Part shown: positions 45,579-60,062 of the stretch, one piece after another | Layout: the number at the start of each line of letters is the position of its first letter | How positions within the stretch are numbered: the stretch's first letter is position 1 | Assembly: GCA_003155135.1 (NCBI GenBank) | Contig: PMFN01000031.1 | Span: forward strand, 124,001-188,000 | DNA from: Acidimicrobiaceae bacterium | Lineage (GTDB): Bacteria > Actinomycetota > Acidimicrobiia > Acidimicrobiales > RAAP-2 | Reading direction: 5' to 3' | Length of the DNA: 64,000 nucleotides | The notes under the pieces: generated by a model | What the model saw: only the letters and a program-made list of their open reading frames with translations | Databases searched by the model: none | What the model was told of the DNA's origin: nothing | Position numbers and translations under genes: made by a program

Positions 45579-47255
45579 TCAGCCCTCGATGGGCCCGGTC
45601 GAGTGCAAGAGCCCGAACACGATCGAGTCGTAGAGCGCCTGCCAGGAGGCCTCGATGATGTTCTCCGACACCCCGATGGTCGTCCAGGTGCGCTCGCCGT
45701 CAGCCGTGTCCACCAGCACCCTGGTCACCGCTCCGGACCCTCGGCCGGTGTCGATGACCCGCACGCGGTAGTCCGTCAGGTGGATGGCGCCGAGGACGGG
45801 GTAGTGGGTGCCGACCGCCTGGCGGAGGGCGGCGTCGAGCGCGTTGACCGGGCCGTTGCCCTCGGCGGTGGCCACCAGCCGGTCGAGGCCGACATGCACC
45901 TTGACCGTGGCCTCGGTAGTGGCGCGCACCGCAGCGGTCAGGACAAGCTCGTCGGCGTCGCCCTCGGGTGGCGTGACGTGGTCGGTGATCACCCGGAAGG
46001 ATTCGACGTCGAAGAAGTCCGGCACCCACCCAGTCGCCCGCCGCAAGAGCAACTCCAAGGAGCCGTCGGCCACCTCGAAGTGGTAGCCCTCGTGCTCGAG
46101 GCGCTTCAACTGGTCGAGGACGCGGCCGAGCACCTCGCCGTCGAGCTCGATGCCGAGCTCGACGGCCTTCATGGCGAGCGTGGAGCGCCCCGCCATCTCC
46201 GAGACCACCACGCGCGTCCCGTTGCCCACCAGGGCGGGGTCGAGGTGCTCGTAGAGATCCCGGCGACGGGCGACCGCACTCGCGTGCAGGCCGCCCTTGT
46301 GGGCGAAGACCGAGGCGCCGACGTAGGGCTGCTGAGGGTTGGGGGCGATGTTGACGAGCTCGGCGATGTGGTGGGCCACCGGCGTCAGCCGCTCCATGCG
46401 GTCGGCGGGGATGGTGCGGATGTTGAGTTTGAGGGACAGGTCGGGGATCGCCGAGGTCAGGTCGGTGTTGCCCGCCCGCTCGCCGTAGCCGTTGACGCAC
46501 CCCTGCACCTGGGTGGCCCCGGCGCGCACCGCGGCGAGCGAGTTCGCCACCGCCACGCCGGCGTCGTTGTGGCAGTGGATGCCGAGCGCGATGTCGCTGC
46601 GCTGGCGGACCCGGCTCACGACCTCCTCCACGCGGTCGGGCAACGTGCCGCCGTTCGTGTCGCAGAGCACGAGTGCCTCGGCTCCCGCCCGCTCGGCGGC
46701 AGCGAGCACGGACAGAGCGAAGTCCTCGTTGTGGAGGAACCCGTCGAAGAAGTGCTCGGCGTCGAGGAACACCCGACGCCCGTGGCTGCGCAAGAACGCG
46801 ACCGAGTCGGCCACCATGGCGACGGCCTCGTCGAGATTGGTGCGCAGGGCATCGGTCACATGGCGGTCCCAGCTCTTGGCCACGATGCAGACCGCCGCGG
46901 TCTCGACGCCGACCAGCCGGGCGAGCGTCTCGTCGTGGGCCGCCTCCACCCCGGCGCGGCGGGTCGAGCCGAAGGCCACCAGGGTGGCCGTGCCGAGGGA
47001 GAGCTCCTTCGGGGCGCGCTCGAAGAACTCGTCGTCCTTCGGGTTGGCCCCAGGCCACCCGCCCTCGATGAAGGCGACGCCGAGGTGGTCGAGCTGCTCG
47101 GCGACGCGCAGCTTGTCGTCGACCGAAAGCGACAGGCCTTCCTGCTGGCTACCGTCGCGCAATGTCGTGTCGAAGATGTCGACCGCGCTCGGGAGTGCCG
47201 GCAGCTCGTAGTCGTGGCTCTCGGCGTGGTGGGTGTGTGTGTGCTCAGTCGACAT
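45579..47255 (-). CDS. cimA: Citramalate synthase
   Basis: Condenses pyruvate and acetyl-CoA to citramalate, the first step of threonine-independent isoleucine synthesis; 558 residues. DIFDTTLRDGSQQEGLSLS with the metal-binding Asp, EGGWPGANPKD, CDTNGGTLP and GIHCHNDAGVAVANS are diagnostic of CimA rather than LeuA, and the C-terminal regulatory domain (about 400-558) is present. Last gene of the leuB-ilvE-cimA operon, which has a Val-Val-Ile-Ile leader peptide. Overlaps ilvE by 11 bp. Confidence 0.9.
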   Translation of the reverse strand: MSTEHTHTHHAESHDYELPALPSAVDIFDTTLRDGSQQEGLSLSVDDKLRVAEQLDHLGVAFIEGGWPGANPKDDEFFERAPKELSLGTATLVAFGSTRRAGVEAAHDETLARLVGVETAAVCIVAKSWDRHVTDALRTNLDEAVAMVADSVAFLRSHGRRVFLDAEHFFDGFLHNEDFALSVLAAAERAGAEALVLCDTNGGTLPDRVEEVVSRVRQRSDIALGIHCHNDAGVAVANSLAAVRAGATQVQGCVNGYGERAGNTDLTSAIPDLSLKLNIRTIPADRMERLTPVAHHIAELVNIAPNPQQPYVGASVFAHKGGLHASAVARRRDLYEHLDPALVGNGTRVVVSEMAGRSTLAMKAVELGIELDGEVLGRVLDQLKRLEHEGYHFEVADGSLELLLRRATGWVPDFFDVESFRVITDHVTPPEGDADELVLTAAVRATTEATVKVHVGLDRLVATAEGNGPVNALDAALRQAVGTHYPVLGAIHLTDYRVRVIDTGRGSGAVTRVLVDTADGERTWTTIGVSENIIEASWQALYDSIVFGLLHSTGPIEG

Positions 47256-48174
47256 AATCGAGCCAGTCCTTGTAGCGGTCGACCTGGCCTCGCACGGTGG
47301 CGAAGTAGGCCGCTTGGATCTCCTTGGTGATGGGTCCCGGGCGGCCGTCGCCGATGGGCCGGTCGTCGACGGCGCGGATCGGCACGACCTCGGCGGCGGT
47401 CCCGGTGAGGAAGGCCTCTTCGGCCGCGTAGAGGTCGGTGCGGATCAGGGGCTCGAAGCTGACGGTGAGCCCCATGTCGCGTGCGATGGTCTGGACCGAC
47501 TTCTGCGTGATCCCCTCGAGCGCGCCGGCGTCGGAGGTGTGCGGCGTGACGAGGCGCCCGTCGAGGACGACGAAGATGTTCTCGCCCGTGCACTCGGAGA
47601 CCTTCCCGTCGGGCGTGAGCAGGATCGCCTCGTCGTAGCCGGCCTTCAACGCCTCCACCTTGGCCAGGGACGAGTTGACGTACATGCCCGTGCCCTTGGC
47701 CGCGGTCGGGACGGCGTTGGGGTCGTGGCGCTGCCAGGAGCTGATCTTGCACGAGACCCCGTTGGCCACACCCTCGTCGCCGAGGTAGGTGCCCCACGGC
47801 CATGCGGCGATCGCCACCTGGACCGGGGAGGGCATCGGGTTCAAGCCCATCTCGCCGTAGCCGAGGTAGACGAGGGGCCGGATGTAGCACCCGTCGTCGA
47901 GGCCGTTCACCCGCACCACCTCGCGCGACGCCTCGATGAGCTCGTCGGGCGTGAAGGGGATGTCGATGAGGAAGACCCGGGCGGAGGCGAACAGCCGGTC
48001 GATGTGGTCGCGCAGGCGGAACACGGCGACCCCCGTGCTCGTCGGGTAGGCACGGATGCCCTCGAAGACGCCCGAGCCGTAGTGCATGGTGTGGGTGAGC
48101 ACGTGGACCTGGGCCTTGTCCCAGTCGACGAGCTCGCCGTCCATCCAGATCTTCTCAGTTGGGGTGATGGGCAC
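47245..48174 (-). CDS. ilvE: Branched-chain amino acid aminotransferase
   Basis: Final transamination to Leu, Ile and Val; 309 residues, fold-type IV PLP enzyme of the E. coli IlvE type. HTMHYGSGVFEGIRAY, IRPLVYLGYGEMG, the PLP Lys in NSSLAKVEALKAGYDEA and GTAAEVVPIRAVDDR are seen. It lies 2 bp after leuB and overlaps cimA, so all three are one transcript. Confidence 0.93.
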   Translation of the reverse strand: MPITPTEKIWMDGELVDWDKAQVHVLTHTMHYGSGVFEGIRAYPTSTGVAVFRLRDHIDRLFASARVFLIDIPFTPDELIEASREVVRVNGLDDGCYIRPLVYLGYGEMGLNPMPSPVQVAIAAWPWGTYLGDEGVANGVSCKISSWQRHDPNAVPTAAKGTGMYVNSSLAKVEALKAGYDEAILLTPDGKVSECTGENIFVVLDGRLVTPHTSDAGALEGITQKSVQTIARDMGLTVSFEPLIRTDLYAAEEAFLTGTAAEVVPIRAVDDRPIGDGRPGPITKEIQAAYFATVRGQVDRYKDWLDYVD

Positions 48175-48176
48175 GG

Positions 48177-49199
48177 TCAGAGCCTTTCTGCGATGGCGTC
48201 GCCGATTGCCGACGTCGCCGAGGTGGTGCCGAGCTGCTCGGCGTCGATGAACGAGGAGATGGACTTGTGGATGCGTGCGGCCGCATCGTCCTCACCCAAG
48301 AAGTCGAGCATGAGGGCGGCGGAGTGGATGGCGGCGAGTGGGTTAGCGACACCCTTGCCGGCGATGTCATGGGCTGCGCCGTGTACCGGCTCGAACAGGG
48401 ACGGCCCGGTCCTCGCCGGGTTTAGGTTCGCCGAGGCGGCGAAGCCGATGCCCCCGCTCACCGCGCCGGCTAGGTCGGTCAGGATGTCCCCGAAGAGGTT
48501 GTCGGTGACGATGACGTCGTAGCGGCGCGGCTGCTCGACCAGGTAGATGCAGGCCGCGTCGACGTGGTTGTACTCGAGCGCCACGTCGCCGAACTCGGGC
48601 GCGACCTCGTTGACCGTGCGCTGCCAGAGGTCGCCGGCGAACGTCAGCACGTTGGTCTTGTGCACAAGGGTGAGCCGGCGCTCGGGTCGGTGCGCCGCGA
48701 GCGCAAAGGCGAAGCGCACGCAGCGCTCGACACCCATGCGGGTGTTGACTGAGCCCTGCGTCGCCACCTCGTGCGGCGTCCCCTTGCGCAGGAACCCGCC
48801 CTCCCCCGCATAGGTCCCTTCGGTGTTCTCGCGCACCACGACGAACTCGCAGCCCTCGGCGATCGAGCCCGGCACGCCTGTGAACGGGCGGAGGTTGACG
48901 TAGAGGTCGAGGGCGAACCGCAGCCGGAGCAGCAGGCCCCGCTCGAGGGTTCCCGGGGGGATGGTGGTGTCGCCGATCGCAGGGCCCACCGCGCCGAGCA
49001 GGATGGCCTCGAAGCCTCGCAGCTCCTCGAGCGTGTCATCGGGAAGCACGTCGCCGGTGCGGACGAACCGGTCCGCCCCGAGGTCGAAGTCCGTGGTGTC
49101 GAGGACCACGCCGGTGGCCGCCACCACTTTCAGGGCCTCCCTGCAGACCTCCGGGCCGATCCCGTCCCCGCCGATGACCGCCACGCGGTGACCGCTCAC
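48177..49199 (-). CDS. leuB: 3-isopropylmalate dehydrogenase
   Basis: Oxidative decarboxylation of 3-isopropylmalate (leucine route) and of 3-methylmalate (citramalate route to isoleucine); 340 residues. GGDGIGPEV, RENTEGTYAG, the Lys in VHKTNVL and the metal Asp in VTDNLFGDILTDLAG are present. GTG 49199 has AAAGGAC upstream. First structural gene after the leader peptide and attenuator, 130 bp from the terminator. Confidence 0.93.
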   Translation of the reverse strand: MSGHRVAVIGGDGIGPEVCREALKVVAATGVVLDTTDFDLGADRFVRTGDVLPDDTLEELRGFEAILLGAVGPAIGDTTIPPGTLERGLLLRLRFALDLYVNLRPFTGVPGSIAEGCEFVVVRENTEGTYAGEGGFLRKGTPHEVATQGSVNTRMGVERCVRFAFALAAHRPERRLTLVHKTNVLTFAGDLWQRTVNEVAPEFGDVALEYNHVDAACIYLVEQPRRYDVIVTDNLFGDILTDLAGAVSGGIGFAASANLNPARTGPSLFEPVHGAAHDIAGKGVANPLAAIHSAALMLDFLGEDDAAARIHKSISSFIDAEQLGTTSATSAIGDAIAERL

Positions 49200-49328: not shown

Positions 49329-49352
49329 AAAAACCGCCCACGAAGTGGACGG
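49329..49352 (-). terminator. Rho-independent attenuator terminator upstream of leuB
   Basis: On the minus strand, CCGTCCAC (49352-49345), loop TTC, GTGGGCGG (49341-49334), then five T. Eight pairs with one G-U wobble followed directly by the U-run, 31 nt after the leader-peptide stop. Confidence 0.85.
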
Positions 49353-49359
49353 TCGAACA

Positions 49360-49383
49360 GGCGCGCGCAGAGGTGCGCGCGCC
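49360..49383 (-). promoter_or_regulatory. Attenuator stem between leader peptide and terminator (leuB)
   Basis: A perfect 10-bp stem, GGCGCGCGCA / TGCGCGCGCC, with a 4-nt loop. Its first base is the last base of the leader-peptide stop codon, so a ribosome on the leader would cover its 5' arm. Confidence 0.75.
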
Positions 49384-49421
49384 TAGCGAATAATGACTAC
49401 GGGGTGCAGGTGTCTGCGCAT
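49383..49421 (-). CDS. Attenuator leader peptide MRRHLHPVVIIR
   Basis: A 12-codon ORF with consecutive GTA GTC ATT ATT (Val-Val-Ile-Ile) three codons before the stop. GTA and ATT are rare codons in this high-GC genome, which would make ribosome pausing sensitive to Val-tRNA and Ile-tRNA charging. A strong stem and a rho-independent terminator follow. The structural genes it would control (leuB, ilvE, cimA) make exactly these amino acids. Established precedent: transcription attenuation of ilv/leu operons in enterobacteria and Corynebacterium. Direct control here is inferred. Confidence 0.85.
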   Translation of the reverse strand: MRRHLHPVVIIR

Positions 49422-49430
49422 CAGGCCACC

Positions 49431-49460
49431 AGTTTCCACCTTTGTGGGCCGTGGCGTCAA
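49431..49460 (-). promoter_or_regulatory. Promoter of leuB leader (TTGACG-N18-GAAACT)
   Basis: On the minus strand: TTGACG at 49460-49455, an 18-bp spacer and GAAACT at 49436-49431, 9 nt before the leader ATG. It has the same layout as the leuA leader promoter. Confidence 0.5.
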
Positions 49461-58175: not shown

Positions 58176-59903
58176 TCAGGAGCGCAGCTGGCGGTTGGCG
58201 GCCGAGACCACCGCGGAGAGCGAGGCGTCGAGGATCGACGAGTCCATGCCCACGCCCCACCAGGTGGTGCCGTCGGGCCCCTCGGCCTCCACGTAGGCGA
58301 CAGCCGACGCGCCGCTGCCCGACGTCAGCGCGTGCTCGGAGTAGTCCTTCACCTCGAATTCCACGCCCAGCTCGGCCCGCAGGCCGGCCACCATCGCGTC
58401 GATGGGACCGTTGCCCTCGCTCTTGACCGTGCGGTGCTCGCCGGCGACCAGCAGCTGGGCGGTGACGGTGGTCCGCTGGTCGCCCGTGGTGATCTCGCTC
58501 GAGAGGAGCCGGATCCCCTGGTCGTCGAGGTAGGTCTCGCTGAAGACCTCCCACAGCTCGGCCGGGCGGATCTCGGTGCCGCTCGCCTCGGTGACGCGCT
58601 GGACGGTCTTCGAGAACTCGACCTGCAGTCGACGCGGCAGGTCGAGCCCATGCTCGGCATCCATGAGGTAGGCGACGCCACCCTTGCCCGACTGGCTATT
58701 CACCCGGATGATCGCCTCGTAGGTGCGGCCGGTGTGCATGGGGTCGATGGGCAGGTAGGGAACCTCCCACTCGCCGTACTCCTCGCCGATGGCCGTCATC
58801 CCCTTCTTGATGGCGTCTTGGTGCGAGCCCGAGAATGCCGTGTAGACGAGGTCGCCGGCGTAGGGGTGGCGCGGGTGGATCGGCATGCGGGTCGCGTACT
58901 CGGCGATGCGACGCACCCGCTCGATGTCCCCGAGGTCGAGGGCCGGGTCGATCCCCTGGGAGAACAGGTTCATGGCGAGCGTCACGATGTCGACGTTCCC
59001 GGTCCGCTCTCCGTTCCCGAACAGCGTGCCCTCGACGCGGTCTGCCCCGGCCAGCACGGCGAGCTCGGCGGCGGCTACCGCCGTGCCCCGGTCGTTGTGC
59101 GGGTGCAGGCTCAAGATGACCGAGTCCCGGTTGCGGATGGTGCGGCCGAACCACTCGATCACGTCCGCGTAGACGTTCGGCGAATACATCTCGACGGTGG
59201 CCGGCAGGTTCAAGATGATCGGCCGCTTCGGCGTCGGCTCGATCACGTCCATGACCGCTTCACAGATCTCGACGGCGAACTCTGGCTCCGTGCCGGTGAA
59301 GCTCTCGGGTGAGTACTCGTAGCGGATGGCCGTGCCAGGCACGTCAGCCTCGAACTTCTTGCACAGGCGCGCCGCGTTGACTGCGATGTCGACGATGCCC
59401 GCCTTGTCGAGGCCGAAGACCACCCGTCGCTGGAGCTCGGAGGTCGAGTTGTAGAAGTGCACGATGGCCGAGCGTGCGCCGACGAGCGACTCGTAGGTGC
59501 GCTCGATCAGCTCCTCGCGGCACTGGACGAGCACCTGGATGGTCACGTCCTCTGGGATGAGGTCCTCTTCGATGATCAGGCGCTGGAAGTCGAAGTCCGT
59601 CTGCGATGCCGACGGGAAGCCGACCTCGATCTCCTTGAAGCCGACGGCCACGAGCGTCTCGAACAGCTTGAGCTTGCGTTGGGCGTCCATGGGGTCGATC
59701 AGCGCCTGGTTGCCGTCGCGCAGGTCCACGCTCGCCCAGCTGGGGGCGCGACGGAACTCGGCGTCGGGCCACGTGCGGTCTGACAACGTCAGAGGCAGGT
59801 GGCTGCGGTACAGGCCGAACGGCATGGGGTTGACGTCGCACGGCATGGCCAGCGGGGATCCCCCGGTGTCGTTGCCTCCTTGTGGTCGCATCTCTGCTTG
59901 CAT
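58176..59903 (-). CDS. leuA: 2-isopropylmalate synthase
   Basis: First committed step of leucine synthesis (2-ketoisovalerate plus acetyl-CoA); 575 residues, type 2 LeuA. SVDLRDGNQALIDPMD with the metal Asp, EVGFPSASQTDFDF, SLHPHNDRGTAVAAAELA, GTLFGNGERTGNVD and a C-terminal leucine-binding regulatory domain (about 430-575) are present. ATG 59903 has a strong AAGGAG site; an upstream GTG at 59948 is less likely. Preceded by a Leu-Leu-Leu leader peptide and a terminator, so transcription is likely attenuated by leucine in addition to feedback inhibition. Confidence 0.95.
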   Translation of the reverse strand: MQAEMRPQGGNDTGGSPLAMPCDVNPMPFGLYRSHLPLTLSDRTWPDAEFRRAPSWASVDLRDGNQALIDPMDAQRKLKLFETLVAVGFKEIEVGFPSASQTDFDFQRLIIEEDLIPEDVTIQVLVQCREELIERTYESLVGARSAIVHFYNSTSELQRRVVFGLDKAGIVDIAVNAARLCKKFEADVPGTAIRYEYSPESFTGTEPEFAVEICEAVMDVIEPTPKRPIILNLPATVEMYSPNVYADVIEWFGRTIRNRDSVILSLHPHNDRGTAVAAAELAVLAGADRVEGTLFGNGERTGNVDIVTLAMNLFSQGIDPALDLGDIERVRRIAEYATRMPIHPRHPYAGDLVYTAFSGSHQDAIKKGMTAIGEEYGEWEVPYLPIDPMHTGRTYEAIIRVNSQSGKGGVAYLMDAEHGLDLPRRLQVEFSKTVQRVTEASGTEIRPAELWEVFSETYLDDQGIRLLSSEITTGDQRTTVTAQLLVAGEHRTVKSEGNGPIDAMVAGLRAELGVEFEVKDYSEHALTSGSGASAVAYVEAEGPDGTTWWGVGMDSSILDASLSAVVSAANRQLRS

Positions 59904-59963: not shown

Positions 59964-59995
59964 AAAAAACCTCCTGGCCGGAGGCGCAGGAGGTT
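59964..59995 (-). terminator. Rho-independent attenuator terminator upstream of leuA
   Basis: On the minus strand, AACCTCCTG, a 10-nt loop, CAGGAGGTT, and T residues continuing beyond the stem: a perfect 9-bp stem ending in a U-run of six including the last two stem bases' continuation. It lies 60 nt before the leuA start. Confidence 0.88.
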
Positions 59996-59998
59996 GCG

Positions 59999-60022
59999 GG
60001 CGAACGCGATGTGGCGTTCGCC
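59999..60022 (-). promoter_or_regulatory. Attenuator stem between leader peptide and terminator (leuA)
   Basis: A perfect 9-bp stem GGCGAACGC / GCGTTCGCC with a 6-nt loop, starting 2 nt after the leader stop codon. Same layout as the leuB attenuator. Confidence 0.75.
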
Positions 60023-60023
60023 G

Positions 60024-60062
60024 TCAGGTAAGCAGCAGGTTCGAGGTCGGTACTGCATTCAT
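60024..60062 (-). CDS. Attenuator leader peptide MNAVPTSNLLLT
   Basis: A 12-codon ORF with three consecutive Leu codons (CTG CTG CTT) just before the stop, followed by a stem and a rho-independent terminator and then leuA. This is the classic layout of a leucine attenuator: a ribosome pausing for charged Leu-tRNA would change the RNA folding. The ATG has GGAG 5 nt upstream. Control of leuA is inferred from this structure and from known leu leaders. Confidence 0.88.
   Translation of the reverse strand: MNAVPTSNLLLT

Follow-up and report, generated by a model that had tools for sequence, protein, structure and literature searches.

Here we describe a leader region at positions 49460–49329, on the minus strand, of a 64,000-nucleotide stretch of Acidimicrobiaceae DNA (hereafter referred to as the window); the elements listed there by an earlier sequence-only reading are confirmed base for base. 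The region precedes an operon that this reading had named leuB-ilvE-cimA, and all three genes indeed score above cut-off with curated NCBIfam models. The features of the leader and operon, all on the minus strand, are as follows.

49455–49460, minus strand: −35 element TTGACG (from the sequence; TTGAC lies 35–40 nt upstream of the leader ATG in 51 relatives)
49431–49436, minus strand: −10 element GAAACT (from the sequence; spacer of 18; 9 nt upstream of the ATG)
49383–49421, minus strand: leader ORF encoding MRRHLHPVVIIR and a stop (ATG at 49421, stop at 49385–49383; regulatory codons at −5 to −2)
49358–49385, minus strand: hairpin 1, UAGGCGCGCGCA-CCUC-UGCGCGCGCCUG (from folding; begins inside the UAG stop; compensatory changes in 64 relatives)
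49354–49357, minus strand: linker (5 nt here when A49353 is counted)
49329–49353, minus strand: intrinsic terminator, ACCGUCCAC-UUC-GUGGGCGGU and a U run (from a terminator scan and folding; near-invariant in relatives)
48177–49199, minus strand: leuB, 3-isopropylmalate dehydrogenase (NF002898, 484 bits against a cut-off of 393)
47245–48174, minus strand: ilvE, branched-chain aminotransferase (TIGR01122, 415 bits against a cut-off of 245.55)
45579–47255, minus strand: cimA, citramalate synthase (TIGR00977, 660 bits against a cut-off of 450)

The promoter proposed by the sequence-only reading (TTGACG-N18-GAAACT) and its 12-codon ORF with GTA GTC ATT ATT are present exactly as claimed. The −35 element recurs in relatives, as does a −10 element of the form GAnACT (GAGACT, GACACT or GAAACT) at a spacing of 17–18. 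A sigma-70 scan gave this promoter no score because its −10 element is weak. As the −35 element begins only 35–40 nt ahead of the ATG, the transcript probably has little or no untranslated sequence before this codon, the transcription start being placed by the promoter-to-ATG spacing. The leader reads ATG CGC AGA CAC CTG CAC CCC GTA GTC ATT ATT CGC TAG, that is, 12 codons plus the stop. The rarity ascribed to GTA and ATT is borne out by nine genes of the same genome, where GTA accounts for 5 of 354 Val codons (1.4%) and ATT for 2 of 173 Ile codons (1.2%).

Hairpin 1 is composed of 10 perfect pairs starting from the A of UAG, thus confirming the stem that had been described there, or of 12 when the closing U-G and the inner A-U pairs are counted. 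The terminator, also detected by a terminator scan, comprises nine pairs, one of them U-G, followed by UUUUUC; its presence and U run stand, whereas the 8 bp first assigned to its stem are really 9–10 pairs. The leader region as a whole folds with a z-score of −4.5, and 0 of 200 shuffles folded equally well. The GTG start codon of leuB (49199) is located 129 nt past the terminator.

LeuB and IlvE are shared with other branched-chain pathways. In the source genome assembly, which is 93% complete, no threonine deaminase was detected: there was no IlvA above cut-off (TIGR01127) and no Thr_dehydrat_C domain. The presence of cimA and the lack of a detectable threonine dehydratase fit isoleucine synthesis via the citramalate route, and isoleucine is probably made from citramalate alone in this organism. 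The leuB leader would read Val and Ile. It would not read Leu, even though LeuB acts in leucine synthesis too; leuA appears to have a Leu sensor of its own (see below).

The sequence-only reading had proposed an alignment with relatives as a check, and had named lack of conservation of leader and terminator as evidence against its case. In that alignment, the VVII codons, the stem and the terminator are kept before leuB while other bases vary, and most genera of the family, as well as the class at large, retain the leader and terminator. At the DNA level, the leader region is matched in 55 of 150 family genomes, nearly always directly upstream of leuB. Parsing of the leuB upstream regions yielded 51 distinct leaders, all with one layout; examples from relatives, each followed by a stop codon, are MHRPERFVGIIH, MFESHQVGIIR, MLTTSQVTIIR and MSALRTTVVIIA. 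Among 142 loci, Val or Ile occupies codons −5, −4, −3 and −2 before the stop in 94, 63, 85 and 91% of cases, respectively; elsewhere the share drops to 1–10% (codons −6 to −10) or 9% (codon −1). Relatives exchange GTA, GTC, GTG and ATC with one another, and ATT with ATC, but keep the Val/Ile identity; these synonymous and V–I exchanges therefore point to selection on the amino acid or codons, not on the bases alone. One leader (L119) contains Val without Ile.

The compared genomes are mostly metagenome-assembled genomes (MAGs). A search of GTDB for exact copies of the terminator recovered 94 stretches, almost all of them from Actinomycetota or Acidimicrobiia MAGs; 90 of these have leuB just downstream and the other 4 reach the contig end within 260 nt. 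This set was chosen by, and is hence biased to, the terminator sequence, the LeuB-anchored set being the unbiased one. A covariance model built from 64 sequences matches 220 of 395 Acidimicrobiia genomes, representing 132 of 184 genera, and leuB adjoins the match in 30/30 of the best loci. No leader was found at leuB in genera g10 (for example, L081, L083–L087 and L089–L096) and g18 (L082). In g10, leuB lies close behind a divergent greA, and the leuA leader is still there (MTSTLTLLLLS and a stop at L328).

Outside Acidimicrobiia, the model matches only 7 of the sampled genomes. The matches examined comprise three ilvB leaders, one leader of a leucyl-tRNA synthetase (assigned by eye) and one of leuB-ilvE-cimA; one further match looks false. 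The leuB-ilvE-cimA case (L321, in genome G550 of another class) encodes MSFSQVVIIR and a stop, and is followed by an unrelated terminator; it reflects either old inheritance or convergence. In the same genome, the leader MNLNCMGLGLM (L324), a hairpin and a terminator precede the leucyl-tRNA synthetase gene, which was called by eye.

The two hairpins have evolved in very different ways. All nine modelled pairs of hairpin 1 display double changes among 64 relatives, and over the whole structure 103 double-change cells were observed, compared with 26.9 in shuffles and 5–20 in slid controls. The arms of hairpin 1 pair at −18.8 kcal/mol with their own partners and at −12.3 kcal/mol when swapped between sequences. 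At leuB, hairpin 1 thus keeps its pairing and not its sequence. The terminator stem (49353–49333), by contrast, is near-invariant across the class while the adjoining hairpin 1 varies freely with compensation, and even its U-G wobble pair is kept in 61 of 64 sequences. Spacing is also constrained: in 99 relatives, 0–3 nt separate the start of hairpin 1 from the stop codon's first base, and 3–8 nt of linker lead on to the terminator's CCG, whereas the terminator-to-leuB distance ranges from 27 to 267 nt. The stop codon is TAG in 93 of the 99, so that hairpin 1 can begin inside it. From this fixed spacing, we infer that ribosome, hairpin 1 and terminator act together.

Some lineages retain the terminator hairpin with a broken U run (L031, L098, L100 and L104 in genus g4; L078, L079, L088 and L095 in g11), which there reads GGTCGTTCC or GTTGTTG. 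Termination in these lineages may need another factor.

Further attenuators in the source genome were sought gene by gene. The window contains a second one, in front of leuA.

60024–60062, minus strand: leuA leader encoding MNAVPTSNLLLT and a stop (layout as at leuB, with Leu codons, LLL)
59999–60022, minus strand: leuA hairpin 1, GGCGAACGC-CACATC-GCGTTCGCC (from the sequence and relatives)
59964–59994, minus strand: leuA terminator, ACCTCCTG...CCAGGAGGT and a T run (from the sequence and relatives)
58194–59903, minus strand: leuA, 2-isopropylmalate synthase (above cut-off with TIGR00970; start codon set by eye near 59903; the low coordinate is where the family match stops)

Of 61 family genomes, 42 (17 of 21 genera) show a DNA-level match to the leuA attenuator (60062–59964), and LLLT precedes the stop of the leader in the loci read. 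The DNA of this attenuator is highly conserved, including the hairpin loop CACATC; CACATC or ACATCTC is often found as the hairpin 1 loop at ilvB, leuA and some leuB loci (L003 and L006), that is, in three operons. A third leader, encoding MTSRREILVPLN and a stop (L216, on contig G000:C33), precedes ilvBNC about 5 kb beyond the end of the window. There too a hairpin abuts the stop codon and is followed by a terminator (ACCTCCC-CGAC-GGGAGGT-CGTTTC), and the leader is matched in 38 of 100 genomes (12 of 21 genera). In each case the codons correspond to the product: Leu for leuA, Ile/Leu/Val for ilvB and Val/Ile for leuB-ilvE-cimA. The match between leader codons and operon products first remarked on at leuB therefore holds in relatives, where Val/Ile is kept, and at the other two operons. 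With one layout and product-matched codons, the three operons thus appear to form a branched-chain amino-acid regulon.

A search against Rfam, including the T-box and known leaders, gave no match in the window at gathering score and no relevant sub-threshold match. The ANTAR motif consists of two hairpins with hexanucleotide loops bearing A at position 1 and G at position 4. It was rejected as a candidate, since the loops misfit: those of hairpin 1 are 3–9 nt long and variable in sequence, and those of the terminator 3–4 nt.

Attenuation by an ilvB leader peptide is already known in Corynebacterium, Mycobacterium and Streptomyces. The actinobacterial ilvB leaders described by Seliverstov et al. 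(2005, PMC1262725) likewise combine a short ORF containing Ile, Val and Leu codons with a terminator before a branched-chain operon. That survey covered elements at ilvB, leuA, leuS, trp, trpS, cys and ileS, other pathways being without conserved structures; leuB-ilvE-cimA falls outside its scope, and Acidimicrobiia are absent from the genomes that it lists. Its LEU element before leuA likewise has a leader with Leu codons, but is a pseudoknot reaching the Shine–Dalgarno sequence, whereas the leuA leader reported here displays a plain hairpin and a terminator. The motif at Corynebacterium glutamicum ilvBNC (ilvB-II; PMC11857589, PMC10272879) also comprises a branched-chain amino-acid leader and a terminator, and is supported experimentally; the measured transcription start of ilvB lies one nucleotide from the leader start codon (PMC11857589). 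There, antiterminator and terminator overlap, whereas at leuB hairpin 1 and the terminator are separate, with no strong conserved overlap. The Mycobacterium tuberculosis ilvB1NC leader (PMC13236596) likewise carries Val and Ile codons in an LVVI of its own, GUA included, and a hairpin that is possible on stalling and masked when the ribosome is at the stop. Its branched-chain amino-acid codons, GUA among them, control the attenuator, and codon mutation abolishes the response (PMC13236596). It differs from the leuB leader in its operon, its sequence and its mutually exclusive terminator and antiterminator. The departure from the known systems is thus a layout without a visible overlapping antiterminator. 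In the open-access literature we found no leuB-ilvE-cimA leader, which had been put forward as undescribed, and no attenuator in Acidimicrobiia.

Taken together, a conserved short ORF with product codons and an intrinsic terminator between this leader and leuB make it highly probable that the region is a ribosome-mediated transcription attenuator sensing Val/Ile supply and controlling leuB-ilvE-cimA, with a presumed direction of response as follows. Features that speak against it are the lack of a conserved antiterminator, the broken U runs of g4 and g11, the L119 leader with its missing Ile, and the g10 and g18 genomes in which leuB has no leader. Transcription would begin at the leader ATG or slightly upstream of it, with immediate loading of a ribosome. 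With charged Val- and Ile-tRNA present, the ribosome would reach the UAG and either cover the 5′ arm of hairpin 1 or leave, and RNA polymerase would halt at the terminator. Under a shortage of Val or Ile, the ribosome would stall on GTA or ATT, its leading edge reaching the base of hairpin 1, which would form or persist beside it; the terminator a few nucleotides downstream would then not form, or be ineffective, and leuB-ilvE-cimA would be transcribed. We modelled the ribosome by geometry only, with an assumed reach of 13 nt past the A-site codon. Under this assumption, stalling at Val −5 leaves the ribosome just clear of hairpin 1, and a ribosome at the stop covers the entire 5′ arm. In the model, hairpin 1 is present with the ribosome at Val −5 and in most cases at Ile −3, but absent with it at Ile −2 or the stop, its formation thus depending on ribosome position; M. 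tuberculosis ilvB1 has been proposed to follow this logic (PMC13236596).

How stalling would act on the terminator is a separate question. Attenuation itself is very likely, and two routes to it, a stalled ribosome held close to RNA polymerase and a hidden antiterminator, are near equals. In the first, which we tentatively favour, hairpin 1 would shorten the path between the two machines and hold the stalled ribosome against RNA polymerase, hindering the folding of the terminator, whereas a finishing ribosome would leave at the stop. Consistent with this, hairpin 1 sits directly at the stop and is followed by a short linker in all relatives, also at leuA and ilvB, and it is only the pairing of hairpin 1, not its sequence, that is maintained at leuB. 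In Escherichia coli, a closely coupled ribosome prevents terminator hairpins from forming (PMC5021804). However, we found no published precedent for the geometry proposed here, and it leaves the near-invariant terminator sequence unaccounted for.

Slightly more doubtful is the second route, a classical four-segment attenuator in which a hidden or transient antiterminator, for instance between the 3′ arms of hairpin 1 and of the terminator, forms on stalling, as in C. glutamicum ilvBNC and M. tuberculosis ilvB1. The functionally close systems do use overlapping or mutually exclusive hairpins, and the clearest other conserved helix in our sequences, 5 bp of CGCCY:GGGCG between the end of hairpin 1 and the GGGCG of the terminator (mean pairing 0.91), could account for the kept U-G pair. 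This helix, however, does not covary (own and swapped pairs are equal), falls far short of the terminator in strength and would become available mostly with a ribosome positioned over the 5′ arm of hairpin 1, which is the fed state and hence the wrong logic; variants whose wobble G is replaced by A (such as L019 and L022) are uncompensated. Nor did a broader search reveal an antiterminator: arms of hairpin 1 and of the terminator taken from one sequence pair no better than arms taken from different sequences, and scanning all columns of 99 sequences for covariation recovered hairpin 1, beside the near-invariant terminator, and no other covarying helix. In ribosome-blocked equilibrium folding, the terminator is kept: in most sequences its probability stays close to 1 wherever the ribosome is placed in the model. 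A pairing of leader and linker that extends hairpin 1 looks good by eye in a few sequences; it was rejected, its own pairs being worse than swapped ones.

A third reading, in line with the near-invariance of the terminator, is that the inverted repeat ACCGTCCAC-N3/4-GTGGGCGGT is a protein binding site, either a DNA operator or the target of an RNA-binding antiterminator, to which the leader is secondary. The terminator arms barely change across the class while hairpin 1 does, and the repeat is kept even where the U run is broken. We nevertheless regard this as improbable: the repeat is found before leuB only, leuA and ilvB having other terminators, which would imply a regulator for one site; as DNA it is an imperfect palindrome with a kept G-U pair; and the Val/Ile codons would be unaccounted for. 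Finally, although short ORFs are frequent in any sequence, a chance ORF beside an ordinary terminator, with no regulation, can be dismissed given the codon conservation, the covariation and the locus specificity.

Returning to attenuation by a stalled ribosome, a bolder and rather speculative version is that leuB-ilvE-cimA, leuA and ilvBNC form a class-wide regulon working without any antiterminator, in which the stop-abutting hairpin, the short fixed linker and the terminator would serve as a ruler and the stalled ribosome itself would block termination. The three operons of this genome, with their matched codons, shared two-hairpin layout and no visible antiterminator, offer an unambiguous way to ask if an overlapping antiterminator is required. 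If attenuation is confirmed, leader peptides would be a shared means of controlling branched-chain amino-acid synthesis in Acidimicrobiia, a class of mostly uncultured soil and aquatic actinobacteria, and the leader codons would report the amino acid to which each operon responds.
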